Source of the DNA: Citrobacter youngae ATCC 29220
Lineage (GTDB): Bacteria; Pseudomonadota; Gammaproteobacteria; Enterobacterales; Enterobacteriaceae
Assembly: GCF_000155975.1 (NCBI RefSeq)
Contig: NZ_GG730300.1
Location: forward strand, 412,159-476,158
DNA: 64,000 nucleotides
Direction: 5' to 3'
Both the position numbers and the translations under genes were made by a program. Below are positions 1,988-54,879 of the stretch, piece by piece; within the stretch, counting starts at the first letter, position 1; every line of letters starts with the position of its first letter. The notes beneath the pieces are model-generated. The model made no database searches and was not told the origin of the DNA. It was given only the letters and a program-made list of their open reading frames with translations.

Positions 1988-2899
1988 TCATGCGCTCAGC
2001 GCTAACGGCTGCTGCGCCCGTTCAAGCAGATATTCACAGGCATTACGCGCTAATCCACTGGCGCGGAAAATCGCTTTTTTGTCCTGCTGCAACACCTTCA
2101 GCCACGATGCGATGTAACTGTCATGCTGTAGCTTCGACTGGATGCCGACATGAGCACACAGGAAAGCCGCTCCCATTTCGGCAACCAGCTCTTCAAAACT
2201 GTACGTCGGATCGCCGAAGGTATGCTTTCCGGCAGTGATGCCGTCCCGGTTCAGCCGTGAAGCGTGTCCGGTAGCGTGCGTCAGTTCATGCAGCAGCGTG
2301 CCGTAATAATCCTCACGCGAAGTGAACTGCTCAGGATGCGGCATGATGATGCAGTCGCGCCCCGGCGAGTAATACGCCCGGTTCTGGCGTCGGTGAGAGA
2401 TCACCACCGCACTTTGCCGGGCAACCTGTTCAGCGGCGGCGATAGGATCATCGACCATCACGACAGGCTGTGAAAACGCCTCCGACAGTCCTTCACATTG
2501 CTGAATATTGAACAGCCGGAACTCGCGTACTACGGCGTAGGACGTCAATTTAGGGTTGCCGTCAGCATCAAGAACCGTGTTCCCATTGCGGTCTACTACC
2601 TCGCGTTGTTGGGGCAGATAGAACACGGCCAGTGTAGATTTTTCGCCTTTGCGGATGTTACCGCCCGCATTGCGAATTTGAGTGAAGGTCAGCCAGCGAT
2701 CGCTTTCATATCCCTGCTGCTCTGCGCTGTTCCAGAGCAGAGGAATATTGATGCCGTGATAAAACCGCCCGGACAGGGCATTCATCGGCACCACCGGTTC
2801 CCCTTCCCGCCATGGGCGAACCCAGGGGATCACGCCTTTCTCCAGCGCGGCGATAATTTCATCGGTGACTTTCTGGTAAAGATCGTTGCTTCTGTTCAT
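1988..2899 (-). CDS. ArdC-like antirestriction / ssDNA-binding zincin protein
   Basis: The protein has 303 aa when started at the ATG at 2899, which has GAGG eight bases upstream; a longer in-frame extension to 3028 has no good ribosome site. The N-terminal half (about 5-135: LYQKVTDEIIAALEKG, PVVPMNALSGRFYHGIN, GEKSTLAVFY) is the ArdC-N/DUF1738 ssDNA-binding domain. The C-terminal half is a zinc metalloprotease-like domain with HELTH at 204-208, followed by GHASRL and a second acidic motif FEELVAEM near 235-242. Plasmid ArdC proteins protect incoming single-stranded DNA from restriction enzymes, so this gene probably helps the ICE establish itself in recipients. It lies on the edge of the methyltransferase cargo but on the opposite strand, and is a normal part of SPI-7-like elements. 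Confidence 0.85.
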   Translation of the reverse strand: MNRSNDLYQKVTDEIIAALEKGVIPWVRPWREGEPVVPMNALSGRFYHGINIPLLWNSAEQQGYESDRWLTFTQIRNAGGNIRKGEKSTLAVFYLPQQREVVDRNGNTVLDADGNPKLTSYAVVREFRLFNIQQCEGLSEAFSQPVVMVDDPIAAAEQVARQSAVVISHRRQNRAYYSPGRDCIIMPHPEQFTSREDYYGTLLHELTHATGHASRLNRDGITAGKHTFGDPTYSFEELVAEMGAAFLCAHVGIQSKLQHDSYIASWLKVLQQDKKAIFRASGLARNACEYLLERAQQPLALSA

Positions 2900-3680: not shown

Positions 3681-4853
3681 TTGAGTAAAATTAAAGCCAT
3701 AGATCTTTTTTCAGGGGCCGGGGGCTTCTCTTTGGCTGCTTTGGAATTGGGTATTGATGTTTTATCAGCAATTGAATTGGACAAAGATGCGTGTGATACA
3801 TATAGAGATAATTTAATAAGAAAGAGAGAAAATAATATAAAGCTCCTCAATCAGGATATTATGTCTATATCACCTATGTCTATGATGGAAGACCTATTTT
3901 TACTTGAAGGTGAACTCGATATTATTATTGGGGGGCCGCCCTGCCAGGGTTTTTCTTCACATAGGATAAAAAATTCTGGGGTTGACGATCCCCGAAATAA
4001 TTTATTGATTAGATACTTTGATTTTGTGAAGGTTTTTAAACCTAAATTATTTTTAGTGGAAAATGTTCCTGGTCTTTTGTGGGAAAAACACAAGGGGTAT
4101 TTAAATAAGTTTAAATCATTGGCTGAATGTAATAATTATAAAATAATTGGCCCTGTCAAATTAAATGCTAAAGATTATGGTGTTCCTCAGAATAGGAATA
4201 GGGTTTTCATTTTGGGGCTTCGCAGTGATGTTAATATAGGCGAAGTTACATGGCCGCCAGTTAGCACTCATTTTAAAGATAAAAAACCACAGTGGAAAAA
4301 TTCATCTGAAGTTTTTGAAAGACCATCCTCAGATATTATTAGAAAAATAGAAAATAAAATCGGTGCAGAGTCAACGGCAAATCTAATCTTTTATAAGAAG
4401 AGAAGTGATACTTGTAGTGATGACTCATCAAATATACATATGAACCATGCAGAATATATGATTGATAGGTTTTCGCAGACTCCTATTAATGGTAGTCGTG
4501 AGGATATTGATTTTAGACTTCCTTGTCATGCTGCTGGCTATGGTGGCCATAAAGATGTTTATGGAAGAATACGCCTGGCTCAGCCCGGCCCAACAATAAC
4601 AACAGGCTGCTTTAATCCATCCAAAGGACGTTTTCTTCATCCTTGGGAGAATCATGGGATTTCTATCAGACATGCTGCTAGATTTCAAACATTTCCCGAT
4701 GACTATATATTTTCTGGTGGGATAATTAGTCAGGGGAAGCAAGTGGGGAATGCTGTTCCTATATTAATGGGAAAGGTATTACTTAATTCATGCGTCAATA
4801 TTATAAGGCATCAGAGTCAGGAGGATGATATTGCATGCAAACAAGAACTTTGA
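3681..4853 (+). CDS. DNA (cytosine-5) methyltransferase of the candidate defence operon
   Basis: This 390-aa protein is a C5 cytosine methyltransferase. Visible motifs are motif I DLFSGAGGFSLA (8-19), motif IV GGPPCQGFS with catalytic Cys at 88, motif VI as LVENVPG, and motif VIII as PQNRNRVFILG. Near the C-terminus, NHGISIRHAARFQTFPDDYIF and QVGNAVP match motifs IX-X. The start is uncertain: the frame is open from a TTG at 3651, a GTG lies at 3669, and TTG 3681 places MSKIKAIDLF at the usual start of the family. No restriction endonuclease is encoded in the usual adjacent position; the gene overlaps the GHKL ATPase gene by 19 bp, implying translational coupling. AT-rich composition contrasts with the flanking ICE genes. 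Its job is probably self-marking of DNA for the downstream system (inference). Confidence 0.9.
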   Translation: MSKIKAIDLFSGAGGFSLAALELGIDVLSAIELDKDACDTYRDNLIRKRENNIKLLNQDIMSISPMSMMEDLFLLEGELDIIIGGPPCQGFSSHRIKNSGVDDPRNNLLIRYFDFVKVFKPKLFLVENVPGLLWEKHKGYLNKFKSLAECNNYKIIGPVKLNAKDYGVPQNRNRVFILGLRSDVNIGEVTWPPVSTHFKDKKPQWKNSSEVFERPSSDIIRKIENKIGAESTANLIFYKKRSDTCSDDSSNIHMNHAEYMIDRFSQTPINGSREDIDFRLPCHAAGYGGHKDVYGRIRLAQPGPTITTGCFNPSKGRFLHPWENHGISIRHAARFQTFPDDYIFSGGIISQGKQVGNAVPILMGKVLLNSCVNIIRHQSQEDDIACKQEL

Positions 4854-7801
4854 CGTTTAAAGCTAGGGCGAGAACTATCGAGCATTTGGGGAAAGGGCAG
4901 ATTGCAGATTGCCCTACAGCGGTTAGTGAGTTATGGAAAAATTCTTATGACGCTTATGCTCGGGATGTTGCGCTATATACAATCGATGGAGTTCGCCCAT
5001 GCGGTGCGCTGATTGACAATGGTTGCGGTATGTCCTTGGAACAACTTGTAGACAACTGGCTCATTGTTGGAACTGAATCAAAAGCAAAGAAGAAAGCTCT
5101 TAGTGAAAAAGATCGATTTGGTTTAGCACTCAGAAAAACGCAAGGTGAGAAAGGAATAGGCCGTTTGTCTGCTGCATTTTTATCGCCTGTAACTTATTTG
5201 ATTACAAAAAAAATTGATACTGGTTTTACTGCACTTTTAATTGATTGGCGTTTATTTGAAAATCCATATCTATCATTTGAAGATGTAACAGTACCTTCAG
5301 CTGAGTTCACTTCACTTGACGAAGCATCAGGAGTATTGGTTCAACTAATAGAACAGTTGAAAAAAAATGTTTATTTTGAAGGTGTTTGTAATATTAGTGA
5401 AAATGAACAATTAAGACGTAGGGCCTGGGAGCGTTTTTCATTAGATGAAATAGAGTTATCCAATAACAAGGATATTACAACAACACAGGAAAAGATTTTA
5501 AATTTTTGCTCAGAGGATGTTGTTTTTTCTGATATATATTCTCCCTGGAATGATTTCTTGAATAAAGTAGAGGAACTCGATGGAGAAAAACATGGGACAG
5601 CTCTATTTTTATTAGAGCTGGGTAGAGAATTATCATTGTTAACTAATACAGGAGATATGGCTAAGGACAATATTGAATTGGCTGATATTGAGCAAAGTTT
5701 AGTTGATACACTCCGGGCATTTGTTAACCCCTATTTATGCAAAGATGATTCCTTTTCTTACGGGATTTTTACAATTAGGAAAAATGGTAGCTATCATCAA
5801 ATTCTAAGCCAAACGGATGTCTTTGGTCGACATGACTTTAATGCTCTTGAGCATACTGTCGTGGGCAGTATTGACTCTAAAGGATGGTTCAGGGGGCGAG
5901 TGACAGCTTTTGGTGAAGATAAGGGGGATGTTATAATCCAACCTAATATAAATGTTAGTGAATACTCTGGTGTTGGTCCTTTTGAACTTTGTTTTGGAAC
6001 ATTTGAATTTAATTTTGAAAATACAACCCACTCAGCAAGAGAGCACGCAAATCTTTTAGCAAAGGCAAAAAAATATGCAGGCTTAATGGTCTTTAGAGAT
6101 AATCTTCGTGTTCTCCCATATGGTCGTGTTGATAATGATTTCTTTCAGATTGAAGAGAGACGCTCATTAAATGCTGGCCGCTATTTCTGGTCTAACAGAC
6201 GGCTCTTTGGTTATATAGGAATTGCGCAGGATGAAAATAGAGAACTAAAAGATAAGTCTGGTAGGGAGGGATTTATTAGGAATCAGGCGGCTAGAGAGTT
6301 AAAAACTATAGTCGCTGATTTACTTACCGATTTAGCTGATAAATTTTTTGGTCGCGGATCCGAAGAAAGAAAAGAACTTCTCGCACAAGTGAAAAAAGAA
6401 CGGGAGTTAAGAAAGGCTGCACAGCAACAGGCTAGAAAGTCGACGCAAAAGAGTTTTTCGGAAGCATTAAAAAAACAAAAACCTATTTTAGATGATTCTC
6501 TGAATAGCATAATATCTTTAAAAAATTCTTTAGAAAAAAGCGAAAACATTGATCTTAATAAAATAAGAAAGCTTGATGAAGAGCTGAGCATTTTAGATTT
6601 AGTGCGAACTGAAATAAAAACTCCGGTTAAACCTCCAAAGCTCGGTATATATGAAGAAAAGTATCGTGATTATAGAGATAAGTACAACGAATTTTCTGCA
6701 TATGTACTACAAATGAAACTGATTGTTAATAAGTTGGACTCCGAGTTGAATAAGCTTGAGCCATCACAACTTGCAAAACGTCACCTTGAAAAAAATCAAG
6801 GGATGATTAATTCAAAACTTACTAAGTTTGTTACCAGTATCAACGAGAAAAATAACAACCTATTAGCTAAGTGGAGTGCAGAAATAAAAGATGATCGCTC
6901 TGTTTATTATAGTAGGTGTATAAGTTTGGTTGATGAAATAGATGATAATTCGAACATAGAACAAGTGCTGAATAACCTTGATAGCGTATATATAGAGTTG
7001 ACGGATTCTTTGGCTTTTAAATATGAATCTATTTTAAAAGGATTGGATAGATTATATGATGGAATAAATCTTGACTCAGCATTTTCTATGTCAGAAGAAG
7101 AAAAATTCTATTTTGAGGAAAAAACAAAAAGCTTAAATGCTTTGGCTCAATTGGGGATTAGTGTCGAAATTCTCTCGCATGAGTTAGAGGAGATGGATGC
7201 TTTAGTTACTCGTGGATTAAATGCACTTCCATATGTTGCAAAGGAACATCCTGGTTATGAGTTAGCTTATAATGCACATAAGTCATTGACTCAGCAAATT
7301 AGATTTCTCTCTCCATTAAAAATATCTGGCTATCAGTCCCGCCAGAGGATTTCGGGGAAAAATATACATGATCATATTATTAAGTTCTTTGGTGATAGAT
7401 TTGAACGGCAACGTGTCGATTTAAAATTTGGAGATGCTTTTAAAAACATCACAATCGTCGATTTGCCATCGAGAATTTACCCTGTTTTTATAAATCTCAT
7501 AAATAATGCATTGTATTGGGTCAATTTAGCAGACAAAAGGGTTATTCACATTGATCTGGTCGATGACCTAGTCATATTGGCTAATTCAGGGCCCGCTGTG
7601 GATGAAGATGATATACCAAAGCTTTTTGAACTCTTTTACAGTAAGAGAACAAATGGCCATGGGGTTGGCTTATATTTATGTCGTGAAAATTTAGCAGTTG
7701 CCCATCATCAAATATGGTATTCGGATGTAAGAGATGGTGGTGTTTATTTGATTCGCGATGGCGCTAATTTTATTATAAAGTTTAATGGGTTGGAGATGTG
7801 A
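4835..7801 (+). CDS. Large protein with two GHKL ATPase modules (HSP90/MORC-like N-terminus, histidine-kinase-like C-terminus)
   Basis: The protein has 988 aa. The N-terminal Bergerat fold shows an N-box SELWKNSYDAYA (31-42), the G1 box DNGCGM (61-66) and a G2-like GEKGIGRLSA (about 104-113), typical of HSP90/MutL/MORC ATPases. A lysine- and glutamate-rich region from about 520 to 720 looks like a coiled coil. The last 230 residues look like a histidine kinase core: ILSHELEEMDALV resembles a dimerisation helix with an H-box-like His, INLINNALYWV is a second N-box (about 886-896), ANSGPAV stands at the G1 position, and LFELFYSKRTNGHGVGLYLCREN is an F/G2 box. So one chain appears to hold two nucleotide-binding sites. 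It is translationally coupled to the methyltransferase and followed one base later by the receiver-like gene. R-M-associated GHKL ATPases are known; this exact double arrangement I do not recognise. Confidence 0.85.
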   Translation: MQTRTLTFKARARTIEHLGKGQIADCPTAVSELWKNSYDAYARDVALYTIDGVRPCGALIDNGCGMSLEQLVDNWLIVGTESKAKKKALSEKDRFGLALRKTQGEKGIGRLSAAFLSPVTYLITKKIDTGFTALLIDWRLFENPYLSFEDVTVPSAEFTSLDEASGVLVQLIEQLKKNVYFEGVCNISENEQLRRRAWERFSLDEIELSNNKDITTTQEKILNFCSEDVVFSDIYSPWNDFLNKVEELDGEKHGTALFLLELGRELSLLTNTGDMAKDNIELADIEQSLVDTLRAFVNPYLCKDDSFSYGIFTIRKNGSYHQILSQTDVFGRHDFNALEHTVVGSIDSKGWFRGRVTAFGEDKGDVIIQPNINVSEYSGVGPFELCFGTFEFNFENTTHSAREHANLLAKAKKYAGLMVFRDNLRVLPYGRVDNDFFQIEERRSLNAGRYFWSNRRLFGYIGIAQDENRELKDKSGREGFIRNQAARELKTIVADLLTDLADKFFGRGSEERKELLAQVKKERELRKAAQQQARKSTQKSFSEALKKQKPILDDSLNSIISLKNSLEKSENIDLNKIRKLDEELSILDLVRTEIKTPVKPPKLGIYEEKYRDYRDKYNEFSAYVLQMKLIVNKLDSELNKLEPSQLAKRHLEKNQGMINSKLTKFVTSINEKNNNLLAKWSAEIKDDRSVYYSRCISLVDEIDDNSNIEQVLNNLDSVYIELTDSLAFKYESILKGLDRLYDGINLDSAFSMSEEEKFYFEEKTKSLNALAQLGISVEILSHELEEMDALVTRGLNALPYVAKEHPGYELAYNAHKSLTQQIRFLSPLKISGYQSRQRISGKNIHDHIIKFFGDRFERQRVDLKFGDAFKNITIVDLPSRIYPVFINLINNALYWVNLADKRVIHIDLVDDLVILANSGPAVDEDDIPKLFELFYSKRTNGHGVGLYLCRENLAVAHHQIWYSDVRDGGVYLIRDGANFIIKFNGLEM

Positions 7802-7802
7802 T

Positions 7803-9554
7803 ATGACTACTAATACATACAATGAACTTGTAAGTAGCACATTCTGTGATAATGCAATTCGTTCTGTTATGATGATCGATGATGAGTTTATCACATATTC
7901 GGATTCTGTTAAGGCGCTAAGTGGTCAAAAAACATTTACCGAAAAAAATATTGATTCTTCAAAAAGGGCTGCTCTGTTAGAAAGTTTTTTTCAAAGTAAA
8001 AAAATGATTTGTGACATCGACAATTGTGTTGTTAATTTCGATGTTGAACGGATTCGCAAATCAGATCTTATAATAATTGATTATCATTTGGAACATGACT
8101 CCCCAGATAAAACTCTCTCAATTCTCAATGAATTAAAAGATTCTGAACATTTAAATATGGTAGTCGTGTATACCAGGGAGAAAATGGATATTGTTTGGTT
8201 GCAAATAGCATCTATGTTAAGGGGGACATATGATATCAACTCTCTTTTAATTGAATATGATAATGATGAGGTAACAGATTACTGGGAGAATACCGTCCTT
8301 CCAGATATAAAGGCAAATGTCGGGTATTCTTTATCGAAAGATGAAATCATACAGTATATTACTTCCAATAAAACAATAGGGAACTTAAAACAATTATTGA
8401 ATAGAGATAATACCCTAACGGTTAAGGATGACAGAGATTTTCTGTACCGTTTGATATGTGAATATTATGTTCAGTCAGCTAATATATTACCAAATGAACA
8501 GCTATATCATCATGTCAATGGTGATGTTAATGGTGTTAAATGGTTACAGGCAGGGAATATTTTTATTGCATTGTATCATAAAGGTCAGGACTCTTATGAA
8601 AATGATGCGGAAAACATATGGGCAACACTGAATGAGTCGTTGTGTGAGTGGCGGCCATCTTATTATCAACTTTTAAAATCAGAAATTCAAAATAAAATAG
8701 AGGCAGAAGCTTTATCATTTAATATACATCTGGCAAATGATATATATGGGCAGGCTGCATGGCTTAATGAAATAATAAAAGCTGAAGATGGCGTGCTGAA
8801 AGATGACAATATTGATGTTATTTTTGGTAATCTTGCTGAAGAATTGTATATAAAATTAAGAAAGAATGATAAGTTGCGAGGGTTTATTAACTCTGTTTTT
8901 GATACATATAAACAAGACTTTAATGCAGGGGAAGAGCGTGATTCATTGAAGTATTGTGCTCGTGAAATGAAACTTCCTACAAACCAAAATATCACTTTTC
9001 AGGATATGTATCATGCATTGAATATGAATCTTTCCTCTAGGAATTATGAGGAGAAACACATATCAACTGGAACTGTTTTTTGGGATATTGATAATGATAA
9101 TTGGTACTTATGTGTTTCAGCTGCCTGCGATATGGTTCCAGCGCAAGGTAATGACCCTCACCATGAACGTCTACGTCCTCACCGATTGATAAAGGCACTT
9201 CAGCTTTTTCCTGTTAGACCTGATAAAGCATTACCATGCGCTCATCATTCAAAATATATTTATGCCTATGACAATAATAAGAGAAAATATTTCTCAATCT
9301 TTAATGAAGATAAAGGTTTGCCAGTTATTGACTATATGATAATACTTAATCACAGTCAGGAAGGGAATGAGGTGAATAAAAGGAACGCTACGGCTGTAGT
9401 ATTGAGAAATAACGATGGTGAAATAGAGAAAGTTAATCTTAATATTAAGATGAAATCTCAACTTCGATCTGGATATGCAGAGCGGTATCAGGCTATAGCA
9501 TCTCAGTATGGCGCAAGAATAGGTGTGGATTACATTAGTGTAGCGTTACCTTGA
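7803..9554 (+). CDS. Receiver-like protein, third gene of the methyltransferase/GHKL operon
   Basis: The 583-aa protein starts at the ATG at 7803 (GGAG seven bases upstream), one base after the GHKL gene stops. Residues about 18-150 resemble a response-regulator receiver domain: an acidic pair in VMMIDDEF (D26, D27), LIIIDYHLE with D93 at the phospho-acceptor position, and MVVVYTRE at the conserved Ser/Thr strand. Between the first and second strands there is an insertion of about 45 residues, so this is an atypical receiver. The remaining 430 residues show no DNA-binding or nuclease motif I recognise; near the end SAACDMVPAQG and HERLRPHRL stand out as possible active-site-like stretches. 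The pairing with a histidine-kinase-like domain in the preceding gene suggests phosphotransfer or a phosphotransfer-derived contact. Output function unknown. Confidence 0.65.
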   Translation: MTTNTYNELVSSTFCDNAIRSVMMIDDEFITYSDSVKALSGQKTFTEKNIDSSKRAALLESFFQSKKMICDIDNCVVNFDVERIRKSDLIIIDYHLEHDSPDKTLSILNELKDSEHLNMVVVYTREKMDIVWLQIASMLRGTYDINSLLIEYDNDEVTDYWENTVLPDIKANVGYSLSKDEIIQYITSNKTIGNLKQLLNRDNTLTVKDDRDFLYRLICEYYVQSANILPNEQLYHHVNGDVNGVKWLQAGNIFIALYHKGQDSYENDAENIWATLNESLCEWRPSYYQLLKSEIQNKIEAEALSFNIHLANDIYGQAAWLNEIIKAEDGVLKDDNIDVIFGNLAEELYIKLRKNDKLRGFINSVFDTYKQDFNAGEERDSLKYCAREMKLPTNQNITFQDMYHALNMNLSSRNYEEKHISTGTVFWDIDNDNWYLCVSAACDMVPAQGNDPHHERLRPHRLIKALQLFPVRPDKALPCAHHSKYIYAYDNNKRKYFSIFNEDKGLPVIDYMIILNHSQEGNEVNKRNATAVVLRNNDGEIEKVNLNIKMKSQLRSGYAERYQAIASQYGARIGVDYISVALP

Positions 9555-9566
9555 TTTGATTACTAG

Positions 9567-9606
9567 AGAGTGTGATGGGTTTGTTATTCATCACACTCTT
9601 TTTTAT
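9567..9606 (+). terminator. Rho-independent terminator after the methyltransferase operon
   Basis: AGAGTGTGATG at 9567-9577 pairs perfectly with CATCACACTCT at 9589-9599 around an 11-base loop and is followed by a T run. It lies between two convergent genes and could also act on the minus-strand HNH gene, because the A-rich flank of the other strand is weaker. Confidence 0.85.
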
Positions 9607-9613
9607 AAGCAAA

Positions 9614-10372
9614 TTATATTAACATTTCTGATGTGTTTGTGTTGTCTGACCATATAACCTCACACGCCAGATATTCACCTATAACAAATTTTACTACGAT
9701 ATCATCTGATGAGTCATCTACAAAGTACCGATATCGTCCTTCTTGTACATCTATCCAAGGATTAATAAATATAGGAATATGTAGCTCTTTATTTTCTTGA
9801 GAAACCATTTTAGTATCTACAACAAGTATTCTTTGAGAATTTCTACTGCCAAGTTCACTGAGAACATAAGCAAAACGGTCTGATTCAAAATCATCTAGTA
9901 ATTCCTTACCCATTAAGGCTATAGGATGCCACCAAACTGAGCTAGGTTCATTTTTGCATATTAAACTCAATTCGTAAGCTGCATGTCCTTGTGCTAGTTT
10001 TATTATGATTCTTTTTATCCTTTCACCCTCAACTGAGAAATATGTTTCTCCATCTTTTATGTATTTCGCCGATTCTAACTTTTTTTGAAGTTTTGGTGTT
10101 CGTTCTAAAACTCCAGAAACTTTCTCTCTTCGTATATCTGAGGGAGATGCACTTCCTGCTATGGCGGCCTCAAGAAGGCATGCAACATATTCCTCATCTG
10201 AAGAAAAACCGTTGTTACATTTCCTGCAAGCTCCTACTACCGGTAGATTTTCAGGAAGCGGTGCATCTAGGAATACTTTAGATGGAACATGCTCTCTTGT
10301 TTCTGGAATGCCACCACAATATACACAACCGCTCACCAGCCTATTATCTGCGTAATTATTTAATTGTTGCAT
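9614..10372 (-). CDS. HNH_5-type zinc-finger nuclease-like protein
   Basis: The 252-aa protein has an N-terminal HNH-like zinc finger: CVYC (16-19), REHVPSKVF with E27-H28, then CRKCNNGFSSDEEYV with C49/C52 and N53-N54. This order (CxxC, EHxP, CxxCNN, acidic) matches the HNH_5 group of endonucleases. The remaining 180 residues hold no obvious second catalytic motif and may recognise a target. The gene is convergent with the methyltransferase operon and lies wholly within the AT-rich cargo, so it may supply the missing nuclease or be an independent cargo gene. Start at ATG 10372; only a weak ribosome site is visible. Nuclease activity is inferred from the motif. Confidence 0.7.
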   Translation of the reverse strand: MQQLNNYADNRLVSGCVYCGGIPETREHVPSKVFLDAPLPENLPVVGACRKCNNGFSSDEEYVACLLEAAIAGSASPSDIRREKVSGVLERTPKLQKKLESAKYIKDGETYFSVEGERIKRIIIKLAQGHAAYELSLICKNEPSSVWWHPIALMGKELLDDFESDRFAYVLSELGSRNSQRILVVDTKMVSQENKELHIPIFINPWIDVQEGRYRYFVDDSSDDIVVKFVIGEYLACEVIWSDNTNTSEMLI

Positions 10373-14699: not shown

Positions 14700-16076
14700 T
14701 TATTTAAAGCGGGTGGTGGCGTTAATTTGTGTGCCGATTTCAATTTCGCTCAACGCGTAGCTTTCCGGTGCGGTATTGATGACGATGCGGGCATGTTGAT
14801 TCTGCTGCAATGGCGTATCCAGCGTGATTTTTAGTCCTTCGGCAACCCCCGGCTCATCTGTCTGCCAGTCCAGATCGAAATCAGGCTTCACAACCGTCCA
14901 GTCGCCGTAGCCGTCGGCAGAAACCTCAATGCGGATATTCTGCGGGGCGGTGGATTGTGCCTGTGTGGCATAGAGGACCAGCGTGTCGAAATCCACTGGC
15001 TGATGCCATTCAATATAGATATAGCGGAACTGGTCATTGTACCAGCGTTCATTCTCCTCTTCGGTGCCGCTACCCTTAGGATAGGTGTCCGCGATGCTGA
15101 AGTGATCGCCGTCGTTCAGCTTGCCTTCCCGCGAGGTGGAGTTATCGCCGTCATAGCCATAGATATTAATAAAGGCGCGTTCGGCAATATTGTATCCGGG
15201 CAGCAGTGGATTCTGATAATTCGGCCACGGATCGGCGGGCGTATCCGCTTTTTTAAATACCCGGTAATAATCGATAGTAAACGTCTCATCGTTGGGCAGC
15301 GGTGGATCGTTATCGTAGATATTGCCCACTTCGGCGTTATTTGTTTCATGGTGATTGAGGGAAATCAGCGGGAACATGCGGTAGTCAATCGCTGATTCAA
15401 TGGTGGAAACCAGTTGCCCGTCGATATAGAGCTTCAGATATTCAGGATCCCATTCCAGGCCGTAAATATGGTAGCCATCATCCAGATCCGGTAGCGTAGC
15501 GCCCTCACCATAAGCCGTCACCAGTGACTGGCTCGCCTCTCCCTGTCGTGGCAGCAGATTAAACTTAACGACGTTCTCCAGAGTGAAGACTTCCGGTGAA
15601 TCAACCTCCATATTTTCGGTGTACACCGCATCCTGCATTCCCAGGAACCAGAAGGCTGGAGCCAGCCCGCTGCCGTTCAGAAAGCGGGTGCGGATTTCAA
15701 AATAGCCATAGCGGGTGGCAAAGGCATCGTAATACGGCATATGGTTAGTGATAGGAAAACCGCCGCTCGGCCACATATTCATGTAATCCCGTGTACCGCC
15801 AGTGATGCCTGCGACCTTGTAGGTGTTGTTGCTGGCGCGCCATGGTTGCCAGTATCCCTGCCCGGCATTATCGACGTACAGCTCCAGACTGACGGTGCCG
15901 TCGGATTCGGTAATAAAGCGATAGCGGGTGCGGGAAGCATCCAGATCGCCCCAGCTTGCCTGGTAATATGGGCACCAGCGCGGGTCGAGGTCCGGACCGT
16001 TAAATTCGTCGCTGAGATCGGGTTGATAGATCCAGTCTGCGTTATCGGGCAGGAACGGTAATATTGGTGTATTCAT
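14700..16076 (-). CDS. GH16-family glycoside hydrolase with C-terminal F5/8-type C-like domain
   Basis: The 458-aa protein has a GH16 catalytic domain over about residues 15-275. The hallmark ExDxxE is MEVDSPEVF, with E157 as the likely nucleophile, D159, and E162 as acid/base. Surrounding features also fit: ATRYGYFEIRTRF, APAFWFLG, YHIYGLEWDPEYLKLYIDG. The C-terminal third (about 300-450: RAFINIYGYDGD, IRIEVSADGYGDWTVV) resembles a discoidin/CBM32-like domain. GH16 covers many beta-glucan and beta-galactan hydrolases; given its GH89 and sulfatase partners, an endo-beta-galactosidase acting on mucin or keratan-type chains is the best inference. Notably no signal peptide is visible (MNTPILPFLPDNADW), so it may act in the cytoplasm or be exported without a classical signal. 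It lies 15 bp downstream of the porin gene. Confidence 0.83.
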   Translation of the reverse strand: MNTPILPFLPDNADWIYQPDLSDEFNGPDLDPRWCPYYQASWGDLDASRTRYRFITESDGTVSLELYVDNAGQGYWQPWRASNNTYKVAGITGGTRDYMNMWPSGGFPITNHMPYYDAFATRYGYFEIRTRFLNGSGLAPAFWFLGMQDAVYTENMEVDSPEVFTLENVVKFNLLPRQGEASQSLVTAYGEGATLPDLDDGYHIYGLEWDPEYLKLYIDGQLVSTIESAIDYRMFPLISLNHHETNNAEVGNIYDNDPPLPNDETFTIDYYRVFKKADTPADPWPNYQNPLLPGYNIAERAFINIYGYDGDNSTSREGKLNDGDHFSIADTYPKGSGTEEENERWYNDQFRYIYIEWHQPVDFDTLVLYATQAQSTAPQNIRIEVSADGYGDWTVVKPDFDLDWQTDEPGVAEGLKITLDTPLQQNQHARIVINTAPESYALSEIEIGTQINATTRFK

Positions 16077-16091
16077 GATAGTAATCCTCTT

Positions 16092-17099
16092 TCAGAAGCT
16101 ATAGATAAAACCGAGGCCGGTTTTGTGGAACTTCACAACAGGCTTATCGCCGGGAGATAAATCATGCCGGGCCTGCACTTCATAGGCGTAATCCAGCGTC
16201 ATGGAGAGATGAGGCGACAGCTTTTGCTCGATAAAGATGCCGGTACGGGTTTCCGTGGTGTGCATCCGTTGATTGCGTGAAGCATTTTGTGACCAGACAT
16301 CCAGCGTCCAGCGCCCGTAAGGCGTGATGGTGGTGGGGCCTGCGTCAAACAGTGAGAAGGTGATTGGAATATAAGGGCGCAGCTGCGAGCGGCAGAACTC
16401 GCCGGTCTGGTCGTCGCTGTTGGTATTCCAGCCCCGATCGATAAAGTAATTCAGCCGCACCGCGATGGTCGGATTAAAGCGATATTCAAAACCGCCTTCG
16501 CCTTTTAATTCACGGTTCGCCAGACCATTTTCATGCAGATTGTTGTACCAGTTGTAGACCGTCACCCAGCCAGTGGATTTGAATTTATCGGTGAAGTTAA
16601 TTCGCCAGTCGGGCTGGAACGACCAGCGCTGGGAGTTATAGCCGCCGGACTGCGTTTTTTCCGGGTTATCCTGATAGATGAAGGTGTAATTTCTGAAGTG
16701 GAAGGTCATGCCCAGCGCCAGATCTTTTTGGTCTACCATCAGATAGCGGGCGTCAAATTCGTATTGGTTAAACCAGTTGTCGCGGCTGAATCCATCGCTG
16801 TAATTGGTGCCGTGGGTTTCCTGATAATAGGAACCGTAAAACGTCCAGCGATCGCGGGAAAAATCCATCCATAATGTGGGTTCAAAAAAGCCGTCTTTAT
16901 CGAAAGACTGTCCTTCTTTGTTTTCGGTTTCGATCAGCAGGCCCGCGCGGACTTTCCAGGGCTTTGATGCCGGAGCTTGGTCGAGGCCGGTATCCACTTT
17001 TTGCTGAATATCATCGGTATCAATATCAGCCGCCATCACGGGCAGGCCGATGCCGGATGCCAGTAACGGCAGGGCGCAGAGCAGGGTATTTCTGTTCAT
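16092..17099 (-). CDS. OmpG-like outer-membrane porin for oligosaccharides
   Basis: The 335-aa protein starts at ATG 17099 with a clear signal peptide (MNRNTLLCALPLLASGIGLPVMA). The mature part has alternating amphipathic strands rich in tyrosine and tryptophan (WTFYGSYYQE, YEFDARYLM, GWVTVYNWYNNLHE) and ends in LGFIYSF, the terminal-phenylalanine signal for outer-membrane insertion. It resembles monomeric OmpG-family porins, which pass larger sugars. It sits 64 bp downstream of the GH89 gene and 15 bp upstream of GH16, so the three genes should form one transcript. It would admit glycan fragments released at the cell surface or in the medium. Confidence 0.8.
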   Translation of the reverse strand: MNRNTLLCALPLLASGIGLPVMAADIDTDDIQQKVDTGLDQAPASKPWKVRAGLLIETENKEGQSFDKDGFFEPTLWMDFSRDRWTFYGSYYQETHGTNYSDGFSRDNWFNQYEFDARYLMVDQKDLALGMTFHFRNYTFIYQDNPEKTQSGGYNSQRWSFQPDWRINFTDKFKSTGWVTVYNWYNNLHENGLANRELKGEGGFEYRFNPTIAVRLNYFIDRGWNTNSDDQTGEFCRSQLRPYIPITFSLFDAGPTTITPYGRWTLDVWSQNASRNQRMHTTETRTGIFIEQKLSPHLSMTLDYAYEVQARHDLSPGDKPVVKFHKTGLGFIYSF

Positions 17100-17163
17100 A
17101 AGATATCTCGCAGAAAGGGAGAATGCCGCAAAAACGGGCATTCTCCTTCGTATCAGGATGGGG

Positions 17164-20100
17164 TTATTGGGTTGCCGCCAGCACGCGGACTTCCGCCAGT
17201 TGTGGCTTCAGATCCGGGCGCAGTTTGAAATCTGCACCGGTCAGCGTGACCCTGACTTTCTGCGCTTCGCCCTTGTACGGCACCGCATTGACCACCTGCT
17301 TTTGCGAGAAGTCTTTCGATTTATCCTGAATGGTGTGCCAGTTACCCTGTGCGTCCTGAATCTCTACCGTCCAGCCAGAGACCACCGGGTTGCGCATATC
17401 CTCCGCTGTCTGCTCAAACTCCAGCTCGATACCGTCTACCTTCTGTGCGCCCTGAAGATCGATAATCAGATCCGCGGGCCAGGTTTTATTGCCCCAAAGC
17501 GTTGAGGACTGTCCGTCCACCACATGCTCGGTCGAGAATTCGGCGTTGATAATATCGCCATGGGTAAAGACCGGCTTGTTCAGCGCCAGATTGCGCTTAT
17601 CCTTACTTTCCCGGTACGGGCGTAAGTCTTCGCTGGTGACTGAGAACTCCGTCAGCGCCTGCTGCGCCAGTTGTCGGATATTGCGCCCGGAAGGCTGCGT
17701 CGGATAGCCGTTACCCGTCTGATTGACCCAGCGATATTCCAGCGGGAACCAGTTCACCTTGATGGCGTCCTGCTTCTGCCCGGTCGCCGCCGCATTCTTC
17801 AGGGCCTGAATCCAGGTCGCCCAGCGCTGGTAGTAGAAATCACCGGTGAGTCCCTGCCACTGGCGGTTGGAGTAATCGCGCAGCCCGGCGTCGGCGGCTT
17901 GCTCGATTCCCCATGTAGTGACCATTGCCCGTGCGTTAAACTCGAACTGGTCGCGGGTCCAGTCGTCCATACCATCCAGCATCGTGCGGGCGCTGTTGAG
18001 CCAGGTGCCGAGCATAAATTCCGGGCGGGTGCCGAGCACCTGATCCTGAAGTTTGATAAGACGCAGGAACTTGCCGGAAAGCTGGTTGAAGGCGCTGTAA
18101 TCCTTCGCCATCCACGCATCTTCAAAGGCGCGGTAATATTCATACGAGGCGTTAGCCAATACCTGACGGGTGATATCCACCAGATCGTGCTGATACGCCG
18201 GGTTATCCTTAAAGCGGTCGTAAACGCTCAGGTAGAGCGGCAGGATTTTTTCAAACTCGGCTTTGTCGTAGTCGATAAGCGCGGTGTAGTAGGTGCAGGC
18301 GCGGGTGACACCGAAGCCGGGCTTGGCGTCGATGATAGAGTCTTCCGCCCGCTGGCGGTCTTTGCGGCGGTGATACGCGGTTTTCACCATAATATCCCAT
18401 GCCTGCTCAATTTCTGGCGACTGCGCACCGTAGCGGCTGGTGAGCCAACTGTGGATATACGCCGTCGAGGATATGGGCGATTTTTCCCATGCCATGTCAT
18501 AGAGCATTTCGTACAGCATCGGGTTGGTGCCGAGCGATTCAGCGGTGACGCCCACGCCCTTCATATATTTCGATTCCGCCAGCGATTGCGGGATCTCCTG
18601 CGCCAGCACTTCCGGCATCCCGGAGAAGCCCATCCGACCGCCAAAGGCGTGCAGCATGTTCCAGATCCACGGCGTGTTGCTGAACTCGTGGCGAATAGCA
18701 TGGTTGGGCTTGTTATCGGCGTAGAGATCGAGGATCAGCGCGTGATCTTTCTTCAGGCCGTTAAGGAAGGCGTCGGTGGGGTTTTCCTGCCAGTTCTGGA
18801 TAATCCACACGGCATCTTTATCGTGCTCCAGCATCTTGTTTTGCACGGTCTGCGCCACTTTCACCATGTCCAGATCGGCGCGATTACCGCCTTCATGGAA
18901 CGGATCGACGGCGTAGTAGTGGCTGATATCACCGAAGGTGGTTTTCAGCGTCTGGTAATAAACGTCGGCGACTTTGCTGAAATAGTCCGCTCCCTGCTTA
19001 ACGTAGGTGCGCAGCATTGGCGGGCGGACAAAGCCAACCCAGTCGCCCTGATCGATCACCTGCGCCTGCGGGTTTTTGGCGGCGAAAGTATCCGGCACCT
19101 GCCCAGCAAAGCCGGGGAAGACCGGCGTGATGCCGTATACTTCCATCCTGTCGTGGATTTTACGCGCCAGCTCGGTGCGCTGGGCAAACCAGCTCTGCGG
19201 CAGCGGGCCGCCAAAGCTCTGCATATTCGCCATATAAAACCAACCAAAGTAAGCCGGGCCGGGCAGATACTGGCGCACATCATTATCGCTGTAGCCGAAC
19301 TGGTGCAGCATCCGCCGCTGAACCTCTTCCTGACCGACAACATCCAGCATCAGGTTGACACCGTTCATCGCCGCCCAGTCGAGGAATTGCTCGTAATCGT
19401 GCCAGCGCCAGAACGCCATGGTGTAGGACGGCGTGCAGAAGTTAAGGGCATATTTGTACTGATACGGCGTCGCTTTTTCCGTCACGCCCTGCGGCATCGG
19501 CCAGTCTGTCGGTATCGCCAGATTGGAGGCATTCAGCGGGTCGTAATTGACGTGCAGATAATTTTTCAGATACCAGTTCAGCCCGGAGGCCAGCGAAATA
19601 CCGTTTGGTCCACTGATGCTGATTTTGCCGTCAGCTTCTTTCACGGTGAAGCTGTCTTTGCCGGTGGTGGAGGGCGTAACCGCGAAAGTAAAACGGTTCT
19701 GATACTGTGCACCGAGCACCCGCTCAACCAGCACCTGTGCTTCGCTGATGACTTCCTGCTGGCGATACGCCGTGTTCTGGCGGCGCTGATGGCGTTTTGC
19801 CCATTCGGTGGTTGCGTAATCGGCGACCTGAATCGCAGGCGGCGTCGGCGCGGTATTGCTGATCTTATCCCCCATCAGAGAGATATCGTTGACCACGCCC
19901 TTTGTACCCGCCGAGTAGTCGGTGATGTTGATGCGCAGGCGGCTGGCGCGAACGTTGAGTGGCAGTCGGTCGTTCGGTTTGCCAGTCTTTGCGGAGGCTA
20001 TTTTGCGGTAAGTCACGCCATCATCGCTGCTGTAGACGTCGAAGCGCGTTAGCGTGTTGAGCGGGGTAGTGAGCTGTAGCTCGCTAAGCTGGTACGTGCC

Positions 20101-20313
20101 TTTTAAGTCCATCTCCAGCCAGCGGTTGTAATCCAGCTTCGATTGCCATTGGGTTGCCGGATTATTGTCCAGCAGAGGCTGGCTGACGTTGTTACCTTGC
20201 GCATCCATCACACGAATTGCCGACGCAGATAAACGGCTGCTTGCCGCTGCCTGGTGGCAGACCAGAGAAATTGACAGCGCCAGTAAAGAGAGCCATCCGG
20301 TTGTTTTTTTCAT
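17164..20313 (-). CDS. GH89 alpha-N-acetylglucosaminidase with flanking discoidin-like domains
   Basis: The 1049-aa protein has a signal peptide (MKKTTGWLSLLALSISLVCHQAAA). Domains in order: discoidin/F5/8-C-like (about 30-150), NAGLU N-terminal domain, TIM-barrel (about 280-620), all-helical NAGLU C-terminal domain, and a second discoidin-like domain at the end (about 915-1045). Catalytic glutamates are E474 in AVDPFHEGG and E592 in GVTAESLGTN; the 118-residue spacing equals that of the two catalytic glutamates (E483/E601) I recall for the Clostridium perfringens GH89. Family members remove terminal alpha-linked GlcNAc from heparan or, in gut bacteria, from GlcNAc-alpha-1,4-Gal caps of gastric-type mucin. 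ATG 20313 has AGGA eight bases upstream and is preferred over ATG 20322. It is the first gene of the GH89-porin-GH16 operon, probably periplasmic or secreted. Confidence 0.9.
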   Translation of the reverse strand: MKKTTGWLSLLALSISLVCHQAAASSRLSASAIRVMDAQGNNVSQPLLDNNPATQWQSKLDYNRWLEMDLKGTYQLSELQLTTPLNTLTRFDVYSSDDGVTYRKIASAKTGKPNDRLPLNVRASRLRINITDYSAGTKGVVNDISLMGDKISNTAPTPPAIQVADYATTEWAKRHQRRQNTAYRQQEVISEAQVLVERVLGAQYQNRFTFAVTPSTTGKDSFTVKEADGKISISGPNGISLASGLNWYLKNYLHVNYDPLNASNLAIPTDWPMPQGVTEKATPYQYKYALNFCTPSYTMAFWRWHDYEQFLDWAAMNGVNLMLDVVGQEEVQRRMLHQFGYSDNDVRQYLPGPAYFGWFYMANMQSFGGPLPQSWFAQRTELARKIHDRMEVYGITPVFPGFAGQVPDTFAAKNPQAQVIDQGDWVGFVRPPMLRTYVKQGADYFSKVADVYYQTLKTTFGDISHYYAVDPFHEGGNRADLDMVKVAQTVQNKMLEHDKDAVWIIQNWQENPTDAFLNGLKKDHALILDLYADNKPNHAIRHEFSNTPWIWNMLHAFGGRMGFSGMPEVLAQEIPQSLAESKYMKGVGVTAESLGTNPMLYEMLYDMAWEKSPISSTAYIHSWLTSRYGAQSPEIEQAWDIMVKTAYHRRKDRQRAEDSIIDAKPGFGVTRACTYYTALIDYDKAEFEKILPLYLSVYDRFKDNPAYQHDLVDITRQVLANASYEYYRAFEDAWMAKDYSAFNQLSGKFLRLIKLQDQVLGTRPEFMLGTWLNSARTMLDGMDDWTRDQFEFNARAMVTTWGIEQAADAGLRDYSNRQWQGLTGDFYYQRWATWIQALKNAAATGQKQDAIKVNWFPLEYRWVNQTGNGYPTQPSGRNIRQLAQQALTEFSVTSEDLRPYRESKDKRNLALNKPVFTHGDIINAEFSTEHVVDGQSSTLWGNKTWPADLIIDLQGAQKVDGIELEFEQTAEDMRNPVVSGWTVEIQDAQGNWHTIQDKSKDFSQKQVVNAVPYKGEAQKVRVTLTGADFKLRPDLKPQLAEVRVLAATQ

Positions 20314-20587
20314 ACTTGCCATCCTGTTTGTTGAAATTCAAAAAACGATGACAGGAAACAAACGGGAGGCTTATGACCATTATCATATACGACAGTCCGT
20401 TATTTATGATCCGCTTCACTTCATTTGTTCCATGCGGAAAAAGAGTTTGCCGCTGCGAATAAATAAATCAGCCATAAACTGTGTATCCGTTCACGCTAAT
20501 TTCCTGTGGCGTTATGACAACGGTTATAAGCAGGTTTTTAGGTGCTCTTTATTCTGAATCTGATGAAATTCCGACTCTGAGGGCATT
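20314..20587. promoter_or_regulatory. Divergent control region of the glycan-utilisation locus
   Basis: This 274-bp AT-rich region separates the divergent GH89 and permease operons and must hold both promoters. A CRP-like site is visible at 20480-20495 (TGTGT-ATCCGT-TCACG, eight of ten core positions match TGTGA-N6-TCACA), which would suit a catabolic locus under carbon control. No dedicated regulator gene for the locus is encoded immediately beside it. The CRP site is a prediction only. Confidence 0.4.
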
Positions 20588-21832
20588 ATGGCTATTCAAC
20601 GCGATACAAAATGGAATGTGATCCTCTGGGGATTCTTTTTCCTGTTCTATTACTACAACTGGTCTTCCTGCTTCTTGTTTTTACCCATGTGGCTAACCCG
20701 AATGGTAGGACTTGATAAAACACATATTGGTATGGTGTTTTCTTCTTTCGCCGTGGCTGCTATCTGCCTGCAACCGCTGCTGGGCTGGGTAACGGACAAG
20801 CTGGGGCCGAAAAAACACCTGCTGTGGCTGATCGTTATCCTGATGGTGCTCTTCGCGCCGTTCTTTATTTACGTGTATACCCCGCTGTTGCAAAGTCATT
20901 TTGCGATTGGGCTGGTAGTTGGCGGGCTGTATCTGGGATTTATCTTCCACGCGGGCTATGGCGCGGTGGAAGCCTTTGTCGAGAAAGTCAGTCGTAACCG
21001 GGGCTTTGAGTATGGTCGCCCCCGGCTGTTTGGCTGCTTTGGATCGGCGGCCTGCGCCACTATCTCCGGCATTCTGTATGGTTTCGATCCGACATGGATT
21101 TACTGGATCGGGTCGGCGCTGGCTTTACTGCTGGTGGTGATCCTACTGGTTGCCCGCTCTGAGCCGCTGCCGGGGATTGAAGCGGAACAAGTCCGCCAGC
21201 AGAAGGTCAGCGTGTGGGAGTTGTTTAAACTCCGTCGGTTCTGGTATTTCACATTATATGTATTAGGTGTGGCCTGTATATATGATGTCTTCGACCAGCA
21301 GTTTATTAATTTCTTCACTCGTTTCTTTGACCATCAGGAACAGGCGGCGAGAGCATTCGGTTATATCACTACCGCCGGAAATCTCGGCGATGCCGCCGTA
21401 ATGTTTTTTATTCCCCTGCTGATTAATAAATATCTTGGTAGCAAGAATGCATTATTAATTACCGGTACCATTATGACGATTCGGATCGTTGGTTCATCCT
21501 TTGCCACTGGACCGATTGAAGTACTCTTCTTACGGATGCTGCATAATTTTGAAGTACCGTTCCTGTTGATTGGTATTTTCAAATATATCGCTGACGTTTT
21601 TGATACTCGTCTGTCCGGGACCATCTATCTGGTGGGCGTGATGTTTATCAAGCAGTCTGCCGCCATTGTTTTATCTACCGTCGCGGGCCGCCTGTACGAC
21701 ACCATCGGCTTCCATAGCACCTATCTGATCCTCGGCAGTATTACTGCCGTATTCACTCTGTTGTCCGCTTTTCTGCTAACGGCAACCCCACGCCAGAAAA
21801 TGGCGGACGCCTACGCGCCCGCCACACTCTAA
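20588..21832 (+). CDS. LacY-like oligosaccharide:proton symporter (MFS, OHS family)
   Basis: The 414-aa membrane protein has about twelve transmembrane helices and aligns closely with lactose permease by eye: VEAFVEKVSRNRGFEYGRPRLFG matches the LacY segment with sugar-binding E126 and R144, LRMLHNFEVPFLLIG matches the H322/E325 helix, and IMTIRIVGSSFA retains the R302-equivalent. One notable change: LacY E269, a sugar ligand in TTMGELL, corresponds here to asparagine in TTAGNLG, so specificity should differ from lactose. It begins the plus-strand operon permease-sulfatase-exporter-maturase and would import oligosaccharides that enter through the OmpG-like porin. Confidence 0.88.
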   Translation: MAIQRDTKWNVILWGFFFLFYYYNWSSCFLFLPMWLTRMVGLDKTHIGMVFSSFAVAAICLQPLLGWVTDKLGPKKHLLWLIVILMVLFAPFFIYVYTPLLQSHFAIGLVVGGLYLGFIFHAGYGAVEAFVEKVSRNRGFEYGRPRLFGCFGSAACATISGILYGFDPTWIYWIGSALALLLVVILLVARSEPLPGIEAEQVRQQKVSVWELFKLRRFWYFTLYVLGVACIYDVFDQQFINFFTRFFDHQEQAARAFGYITTAGNLGDAAVMFFIPLLINKYLGSKNALLITGTIMTIRIVGSSFATGPIEVLFLRMLHNFEVPFLLIGIFKYIADVFDTRLSGTIYLVGVMFIKQSAAIVLSTVAGRLYDTIGFHSTYLILGSITAVFTLLSAFLLTATPRQKMADAYAPATL

Positions 21833-21845
21833 TGGAGAGAACATT

Positions 21846-23138
21846 ATGCAACCGAATATTCTGGTCTTTTTCACCGATCAACAGCGCTGGGACACGGTGG
21901 GCTGCTACAACCCTGCCGTCAGTACCACCCCGGTGCTGGACCAGCTTGCCCGCGAGGGCGTGAAGTTCGAAAACGCCTTTACCGTTCAGCCTGTCTGCGG
22001 CCCGGCGCGCTCCTGCCTGCAAACCGGGCGTTACCCGACGCAGAACGGCTGTTACCGCAATAATATCGCCATGCGACAGGATGAAGTGACGCTGGCGAAA
22101 CTGTTCAATCAGGCGGGGTATGACACTGCCTATATCGGAAAGTGGCACCTGGCGGATCTGGATGAAAAACCGGTGCCGGAAGAACTGCGCGGCGGCTGGC
22201 AATACTGGCTGGCGGCAGATGCGCTGGAACATACATCGCACCCTTACGGCGGTCACTTTTTTGATAAAGATAACCAGCCTGTGCATTTCGATGGCTACCG
22301 GGTGGATGACCAGACTACGTTCGCGCTCGATTACCTGAAAAATCGCCAGCCGGATAACCCATTCCTGCTGTTTCTCTCTTACCTGGAGCCGCACTTCCAG
22401 AACGATATGGCGCGTTTTGTCGCCCCGGATGGCTACGCCGAACGCTTCCAGACCGCAGCGGTGCCGCCGGATCTGATTAACCGCCCCGGCGACTGGCCGC
22501 AGAACCTTCCTGATTATTACGGCATGTGCCAGAACCTGGATGAAAACCTTGGGCGTATCGTCGATTACCTGAAGGCCAGCGGCGAATACGACAACACGAT
22601 TATTCTGTTCTTCAGCGATCACGGCTGTCATTTCCGCACCCGCAACGATGAATACAAACGCTCGTGCCATGAGTCCAGTATTCGCATTCCCTGCGTGGCT
22701 CGGGGTGGGCCATTTAGCGGTGGCAGAACGGTGGAGCATCTGGTGACGCTGCTGGATATCCCAACCACGATGCTAAGCGCCGCAGGCATTACAGTGCCGG
22801 ATGCCATGGTGGGCCGTGATTTGCAAACGGCGCTGAATGCTGAGCACTGGGATGAGGAGGTGCTGATCCAAATTAGTGAGTCGGAAGTTGGACGGGCGCT
22901 GCGCACCACACGCTGGAAATATGAAATTGTCGCGCCCGGCAGCGATCCGTGGAATGAGTCTGCTGCGAAGATTTATGTGGAGAGCCAGCTTTATGACCTG
23001 CTGAACGACCCGTGGGAGCGCCAGAACCTGATTGCCAGCCCGGAACATGTGCGGATCCGCGATAAACTACGTCAGGATATTGGCCGCAAAATGACGGCGA
23101 TTGGTGAAGACCTGCCCGTCATTGTTCCGGTGGAGTAA
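21846..23138 (+). CDS. Cys-type sulfatase, probably acting on imported glycan sulfate esters
   Basis: The 430-aa protein is a type I sulfatase: NILVFFTDQQRWDTVGC carries the metal-binding aspartates, VCGPARSCLQTGR is the C-x-P-x-R signature with C51 as the residue converted to formylglycine, and YIGKWHL is the second signature. HGCHFRTRNDEYKRSCHESSIRIP matches the later metal-binding block. There is no signal peptide, so it should act in the cytoplasm on substrates imported by the LacY-like permease. The Cys type (not Ser) and the downstream radical-SAM maturase fit together. It lies 13 bp after the permease gene, with GGAG before the ATG. Likely substrates are 6-sulfo-GlcNAc or sulfo-Gal units of mucin or keratan-type chains (inference). 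Confidence 0.9.
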   Translation: MQPNILVFFTDQQRWDTVGCYNPAVSTTPVLDQLAREGVKFENAFTVQPVCGPARSCLQTGRYPTQNGCYRNNIAMRQDEVTLAKLFNQAGYDTAYIGKWHLADLDEKPVPEELRGGWQYWLAADALEHTSHPYGGHFFDKDNQPVHFDGYRVDDQTTFALDYLKNRQPDNPFLLFLSYLEPHFQNDMARFVAPDGYAERFQTAAVPPDLINRPGDWPQNLPDYYGMCQNLDENLGRIVDYLKASGEYDNTIILFFSDHGCHFRTRNDEYKRSCHESSIRIPCVARGGPFSGGRTVEHLVTLLDIPTTMLSAAGITVPDAMVGRDLQTALNAEHWDEEVLIQISESEVGRALRTTRWKYEIVAPGSDPWNESAAKIYVESQLYDLLNDPWERQNLIASPEHVRIRDKLRQDIGRKMTAIGEDLPVIVPVE

Positions 23139-23141
23139 GTG

Positions 23142-25105: not shown

Positions 25106-25183
25106 ATAAAATTATTGCTGTCTAACATCTTTCGGGTAAGGATAGGTACAATGCAAACGTATTTTTGTCCTAAATAGCCGTTG

Positions 25184-54676: not shown

Positions 54677-54679
54677 ATT

Positions 54680-54879
54680 GCTTCAACCCGATACAAATGA
54701 ACAACATTACACCGTAGGTGTGACTCATCGGTTACACTAATACGAGTGACTAGGTTAGTCACTATTGGGACTATGCTTAAAGCCAAAAAGCAACTTTCAC
54801 TTAATGGCATCAAACTGGAGGAGCAAGCCCTCAGATACTCGTAAAAACTCATATCTCCCCTCTACTATCGGGTTGAAGC
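54680..54879 (-). ncRNA. Retron msr-msd non-coding RNA (predicted)
   Basis: The region is bracketed by a perfect 14-bp inverted repeat: GCTTCAACCCGATA at 54680-54693 and TATCGGGTTGAAGC at 54866-54879, the expected a2/a1 pair. Inside, on the minus strand, there are hairpins: an msr-like four-bp stem with seven-base loop (54818-54821/54829-54832), an eight-bp stem with a three-base loop (54745-54752/54756-54763, AGTGACTA with TAGTCACT), and a five-bp stem (54709-54713/54717-54721), the last two likely in msd. The a1 arm lies in the 3' end of the effector gene; a2 abuts the reverse transcriptase start. The branching guanosine cannot be placed from sequence alone. Confidence 0.8.

Follow-up and report, generated by a model that had tools for sequence, protein, structure and literature searches.

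The HEF_HK (PF19191) and Response_reg_2 (PF19192) domains were defined by Bellieny-Rabelo et al. (2021, PMC8011034), who reported a linkage of 91.6% in 644 regions, often with a C5 methylase gene upstream. These authors suggested a soluble two-component-like system, tied to restriction-modification (R-M) and derived from paraMORCs. The abstract, Results and Discussion of that paper contain no phage test of the set, and no later experimental test was found in the open-licence PMC literature. For MORC and paraMORC ATPases, a location in R-M loci next to C5 methylase and Vsr genes has been described (Iyer et al. 2008, PMC2292703). Furthermore, a GHKL ATPase of the paraMORC kind takes part in phage defence in the Shedu protein VcSduA, there together with a DUF4263 nuclease (PMC12137116). 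For the DefensePredictor candidates (Science 2026, PMC13092281) comparison was made by the legend of Fig. 6F, which lists HATPase and REC among the domains of highlighted untested systems.

The locus investigated here lies in a window, i.e. the whole analysed stretch, of 64,000 nucleotides from Citrobacter youngae ATCC 29220. Three intact and coupled genes were observed at 3681-9554 on the forward strand. MT (3681..4853) encodes a C5 cytosine DNA methyltransferase of 390 aa, counted from TTG 3681; GTG 3669 and TTG 3651 are other possible starts in frame. GHKL (4835..7801, ATG start, 988 aa) encodes a MORC-type ATPase, a helical stretch and a histidine-kinase core, and RR (7803..9554, ATG start, 583 aa) a receiver fold and a C-terminal domain of no named family. 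The ORF calls reproduced the coordinates and couplings of the original prediction, including the 19-bp overlap of MT and GHKL (4835-4853) and the single base 7802 between GHKL and RR. The terminator claimed for the end of the block could be recognized by direct reading of the sequence. An inverted repeat with T run, a probable terminator, follows RR at 9567..9604 (forward strand) and lies between RR and the convergent gene; its perfect 10-bp stem (9568-9577 pairing with 9589-9598) encloses an 11-base loop. The automated inverted-repeat scan covered loops of 3-8 bases only, hence this stem was not listed. The block is also AT-rich as claimed, with a GC content of 33-37% from 4 to 10 kb compared to 53-59% at 1-3 kb and 11-14 kb.

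Both domains of the HEF_HK/Response_reg_2 pair were found above cut-off in adjoining genes with a C5 methylase neighbour. The domain order HATPase_c_3, HEF_HK and HATPase_c is the commonest architecture in the 2021 paper, and the adjacency, the upstream C5 methylase and the Vsr and HNH neighbours are described there as well (PMC8011034). The set is thus the predicted family described in 2021, and the attribute "undescribed" of the original prediction does not apply, since the pair and its link to C5 methylases had been published. New here are the MORC-like fold, the insert in the receiver, the residue K260, the RR domain without relatives and the loss pattern. The window copy is a distant one, reaching 33 bits with the HEF_HK model of Pfam compared to 86 for a second copy in the same genome.

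The claim of a C5 methyltransferase was confirmed. MT matched PF00145 (DNA_methylase, Pfam) with 196.3 bits and TIGR00675 with 154.1 bits (cut-off 100.65), and C5-methylase motifs are present, with Cys88 within PPCQG at 86. By the PF00145 match and these motifs, MT is a DNA methyltransferase of the type required in R-M systems. Its PADLOC matches, DruM of Druantia included, are read as generic C5 methylases. The target-recognition region was placed at about residues 181-297, with bounds set by hand from the motifs.

For GHKL, an HSP90/MORC-like N-terminus and a histidine-kinase-like C-terminus had been proposed, and both were supported by Pfam matches and predicted folds. HATPase_c_3 was matched at 28-138 (37.9 bits, cut-off 25), HEF_HK at 772-830 (28.9 bits, cut-off 24.1) and HATPase_c at 878-969 (47.0 bits, cut-off 26.4). 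In the predicted fold, residues 11-517 match the ATPase modules of MORC3, SMCHD1 and Hsp90 (GHKL and S5), as expected for a member of the MORC/paraMORC group; about 517-772 would form a helical stretch and 772-987 a histidine-kinase core with H782. The pLDDT of the model is below 50 at 762-782; the position of the H-box helix is therefore uncertain, and the similarity to kinases depends mainly on the ATP-binding domain. The H-box H782-E783 was not part of the original prediction. In all 46 aligned GHKL proteins E32, N36, D61, G63, G65, KGIGRLS (106-112), H782, N887, N891, G943 and G945 are conserved, and position 783 is occupied by E (42 proteins) or D (4 proteins). The Asp of the kinase G1 box is replaced by Asn (917) in the window protein and in seven others of the 46. 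GHKL thus has the H-box histidine and the kinase ATP-binding core of a two-component protein. With the MORC and paraMORC proteins of R-M loci it shares an N-terminal GHKL and S5-like module with intact motifs. It differs from them in its fusion to a histidine-kinase core and in its receiver partner, and neither a helicase nor an RE-fold nuclease is among the recurrent neighbours here (PMC2292703). Other than in VcSduA, no DUF4263 match was detected in the set with Pfam at E up to 1. PADLOC 2.0.0 (2023) gave no match for GHKL or RR at E up to 1.

The proposed receiver-like N-terminus of RR was verified by a Response_reg_2 match at 19-169 (87.7 bits, cut-off 27). The receiver residues are complete: D26, D27 and D93, the latter being the receiver aspartate, are found in 52 of 52 RR proteins, K260 is invariant, and at position 124 T was found in 51 proteins and S in the remaining one. 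RR consequently shows the DD, D, T/S and K of a two-component receiver. According to the model, the receiver fold probably extends over about 17-140 and 247-285 with a helical insert. Structure alignment of the whole protein (VIA-align) gave a receiver match with coverage mainly of residues 17-285, and RR may have a known fold beyond these residues. With Foldseek, no match at E 0.001 or better was obtained for the whole RR; receivers alone appeared, at E about 0.07 and above. The C-terminal domain (404-583) matches no named family, and its profile found no match better than E 3.3 in the PDB. Among 349 genomes this profile was detected in five, all of them with a PF19192 match as well. A known DNA-binding output domain was not found in RR by the Pfam search, and neither in GHKL nor in RR was a nuclease or other effector family recognized (Pfam, PADLOC, NCBIfam and profile searches, for RR also Foldseek). 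PF19192 is sparse: of 295 genomes from the order, 8 exceeded its cut-off, and of 398 from the phylum sample, 11 did so (both figures include the own genome), whereas none of 14 control genomes did. A search with the RR protein gave no match in phage records and two matches in plasmids.

Residues 13-203 of GHKL also matched positions 8-189 of the BbrUII/HgiDII restriction-enzyme model (NCBIfam NF050001) with E 7e-14, but the 51.3 bits compare with a cut-off of 550 and the rest of the model was unmatched. Hence, GHKL and RR might cut or block unmodified DNA in a direct, ATP-dependent manner, without phosphate transfer. This would agree with the prediction of MORC and paraMORC proteins as R-M parts (PMC2292703) and with the near-obligate MT described below. 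The invariance of H782, D93 and K260 would then be needless, however, and no nuclease family was recognized by the searches above; direct restriction appears rather unlikely.

The surroundings of the sets were examined with 116 ORFs within 900 bp. Vsr was found 20 times and HNH_2 seven times, other Pfam families at most twice each. With PADLOC, among the matches listed (25 of 75 families), PDC-M01B was found up to 4 times and type II REase models up to 3 times each. Vsr repairs deaminated 5-methylcytosine. Its recurrence as a neighbour therefore supports real methylation by MT. A constant restriction enzyme was not detected among the 116 neighbours. This bears on the view that the set is a regulator and not a weapon, with GHKL and RR as a cytoplasmic two-component pair controlling methylase or R-M genes or sensing nucleotides, and with neighbouring enzymes performing any restriction. 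Such a role follows the proposal of the authors of 2021 (PMC8011034). Kinase and receiver residues, complete save for the G1-box Asn, are in line with it, and the C-terminal domain of RR could be the output domain. It is opposed by the lack of a constant restriction enzyme, by the low counts of the type II REase models and by the Pfam search for DNA-binding output domains, and we regard it as improbable.

The joint conservation of the three genes, named in the original prediction as a check, was demonstrated. A scan of named genomes yielded 55 loci. In 50 of them a long GHKL adjoins RR, and MT lies within 1.5 kb in 45. The remaining loci were read by hand: MT was present in L069 (miscalled start), in L073 (at 1.6 kb) and in L060 (at about 3.1 kb), L065 was without MT, and L080 begins at a contig end. 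Of the 45 loci, 32 have MT upstream, while in 8 it follows downstream with the same orientation and in 5 it is convergent; the link to MT therefore outlives changes of gene order. With additional loci and a stricter criterion, an intact GHKL was found in 60 of 70 unique loci, and an intact C5 methylase lies within 3.1 kb in 58 of these 60, for 57 of them within 600 bp. This count refers to the intactness of GHKL and MT, that of RR aside. The two exceptions are L080 at its contig end and L067, where MT has an in-frame stop and GHKL is intact. Seven of the ten loci without intact GHKL are also without MT (L051, L052, L059, L065, L102, L103 and L105, several at contig ends), and L073, L094 and L112 combine a broken GHKL with an intact MT. 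In thirty related genomes between 0 and 7 C5-methylase matches were counted per genome, with fragments included, and therefore a chance C5-methylase neighbour within about 1.5 kb is estimated for less than 1% of cases.

The set of 70 loci excludes L047 (identical to L061), the viral-contig loci L021-L046 (RR 55-58% identical to that of the window, not examined singly), the short L001-L020, L110 and L111, the window itself and L113 (window region). L114, L115 and L131-L133 were regarded as repeats of the contigs of L053, L058, L088, L074 and L078, judged by their length or gene layout. L118-L121, L124-L128 and the E. coli loci L107-L109, L122 and L123 were left out as well.

Over 51 sets (one duplicate included), the identities of GHKL and RR were correlated with 0.95, those of MT and GHKL with 0.42. 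For the loci L087 and L090 identities of 94% (GHKL), 93% (RR), 66% (MT core) and 47% (MT recognition region) were determined, which suggests that MT can be replaced. The reverse case is given by L056 and L057 with 91% for GHKL and 47% for RR. A recognition region in GHKL or RR matched to that of MT was sought by partial correlation and was not found: no segment clearly tracked the recognition region of MT, the partial r not exceeding 0.22, or 0.13 when the MT core was held constant as well. The single suggestive value, that of RR 481-560, was reached in only 6 of 500 permutations, but before control for the MT core.

In 5,426 E. coli genomes, MT was matched in 205 and the first half of GHKL in 205 at a cover of at least 80% (206 in part). 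The whole set was found at a cover of at least 80% in 205 genomes and a smaller part in 26 more; these figures were counted separately and not paired within individual genomes. Of the 26, the five listed contain nothing but 3' parts. Some of the 205 copies are broken. H62 carries IS1 in the set, with GHKL annotated twice, and in H94 the GHKL gene is annotated in two pieces; MT is annotated in both. The E. coli copies are at least 99% identical, and their counts thus stand for few events. The commensal strain SE15 is among the carriers, with its copy at 4542611-4548686 of NC_013654. Downstream of the set, both SE15 and DEC5E have genes for an HNH protein, for ArdC and for a MobH relaxase, a setting similar to that of the window. 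At the DNA level no match of the window block to E. coli genomes and plasmids was detected at megablast sensitivity. A different E. coli copy matches 573 of the 5,426 genomes (560 at 80% cover). It is represented by L107, L108 and L109, where GHKL is truncated by the N-terminal third or more, MT is lacking and a remnant of RR is left. This remnant adjoins an integrase gene and a 138-aa gene of no assigned function, with ssrA beside two of the three. A protein family of 129-146 aa follows RR in loci of Erwinia, Citrobacter and Serratia.

The trend of these losses fits, indirectly, a protective MT, but the close similarity of the E. coli copies limits its weight and L067 is a counterexample. An intact GHKL, rare without MT, could also be expected if the set were mainly a selfish stabiliser that kills cells losing the integrative and conjugative element (ICE) through loss of methylation, with defence being secondary. 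The ICE around the window set and the ArdC and MobH genes close to the sets of SE15 and DEC5E would suit this idea, L067, which retains GHKL with a broken MT, would not; we consider it highly improbable.

The convergent gene at 9614..10372 (reverse strand) had been assigned as HNH_5-like, a label resting on a motif seen by eye, and as a possible effector. Its protein gave no match in Pfam, PADLOC and NCBIfam at E up to 1. A homologue (E up to 1e-3) was present in 1 of 70 unique loci, the Magnetospirillum locus L100 (107 bits), where it is likewise convergent and downstream of the set. Nine relatives were found on plasmids, none of them in the two records that matched RR, although more distant RRs could have been missed. 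No relatives were found in viral contigs, and a match was detected in 4 of 247 genomes of the order, the own genome counted. A four-gene system with this protein as effector could refer to the arrangement in Magnetospirillum and to the seven other HNH proteins (HNH_2) among the 116 neighbours, one of which follows RR in E. coli SE15. With a homologue in a single unique locus, plasmid relatives apart from RR matches and a gene on the opposite strand, such a system has scarcely any probability. The gene was rejected as a fourth part, and from its sequence distribution it is best regarded as an independent neighbour, not as a core part.

The claimed position as cargo of an ICE was corroborated by six conjugation and partition models above cut-off (MobH relaxase, TIGR03755, TIGR03752, TraC, TraD and ParB), which assign the element to the PFGI-1 class. 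The cargo is rich in defence genes: a type I-B retron-like pair, a PD-T7-5 homologue, a SIR2 protein, a TIR protein, HipA and ArdC. The ArdC anti-restriction protein (1988..2899, reverse strand; PF08401 122.2 bits, PF18818 152.2 bits) flanks the module. The retron-like pair (53576-56969, reverse strand) consists of a reverse transcriptase (PADLOC RT_I-B, 322 bits) and ATPase-Toprim_I-B (741 bits), and the PD-T7-5 homologue (29213-30346, reverse strand) reached 424.5 bits. A protein of 939 aa with a SIR2_2 domain (37777-40593, forward strand) lies within an AT-rich insert; ThsA models cover its first 230 residues or so and the remainder is unclassified. The CAP12/Pycsar-type TIR protein (25181-26005, forward strand) is a candidate PDC-S35. 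Glycan-use cargo was identified at 14703-25102 with a NAGLU-type glycosidase, an OmpG porin, a LacY-like transporter and a radical SAM/SPASM protein, besides sulfatase-like and glycanase-like proteins with scores below the model cut-offs. For the cargo proteins at 48880-49914 and 27865-29151 (both forward strand), Pfam and PADLOC searches at E up to 0.001 gave no match. The host genome (5.15 Mb) contains another, diverged set of MT, GHKL and RR, about 187 kb away. This set (L112 7289-13144, contig C9 near 229-235 kb) has an open MT and a GHKL gene in two overlapping frames. In general, the three-gene module with its domains, phosphotransfer residues and C5-methylase link in a defence-rich ICE stood as predicted originally; the novelty and the HNH part did not.

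The analysis established the three genes and their near-obligate linkage, the domain families, the conserved residues and the predicted folds. From these results we infer DNA sensing, methylation dependence, phosphotransfer, effector activity and defence against phages or plasmids as follows. MT would mark the DNA of host and element with 5-methylcytosine. GHKL would be a MORC-type ATP-dependent clamp engaging DNA; MORC-1 of Caenorhabditis elegans is reported to entrap DNA (PMC8277788). On foreign unmarked DNA, the cycle of the N-terminal ATPase could act through the helical stretch on the histidine-kinase core, leading to its autophosphorylation at H782 and to transfer of the phosphate to D93 of RR. 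Phosphorylated RR might then free or activate its C-terminal domain for attack on the invader, recruitment of an effector or shutdown of the cell. This reading is favoured by the conserved residues and predicted folds, the BbrUII/HgiDII match, the near-obligate MT, the correlated identities of GHKL and RR, the Vsr neighbours, the E. coli counts and the defence-rich ICE. The G1-box Asn, the MT stop of L067, the low pLDDT at 762-782, the missing match to an effector family, the failure to find a segment tracking the MT recognition region and the few events behind the E. coli counts speak against it. In balance, we see an even chance that this HEF_HK/Response_reg_2 set distinguishes self from non-self by methylation, with the MORC clamp driving a phosphorelay that ends at a putative effector domain. 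Phosphorelay immunity, with a MORC-type clamp as kinase sensor that converts the recognition of unmethylated DNA into a phosphoryl signal to an RR with a new effector domain, is proposed more tentatively, at somewhat below an even chance.

If this is true, two-component signalling would control a restriction-like immunity in which a MORC-type ATPase of bacteria senses the DNA. It would also bear on the relation of MORC proteins to DNA methylation in plants and animals. The interest of the set lies in the fusion of a MORC module with a kinase and in the copy of the commensal E. coli SE15, by which the set is directly testable.
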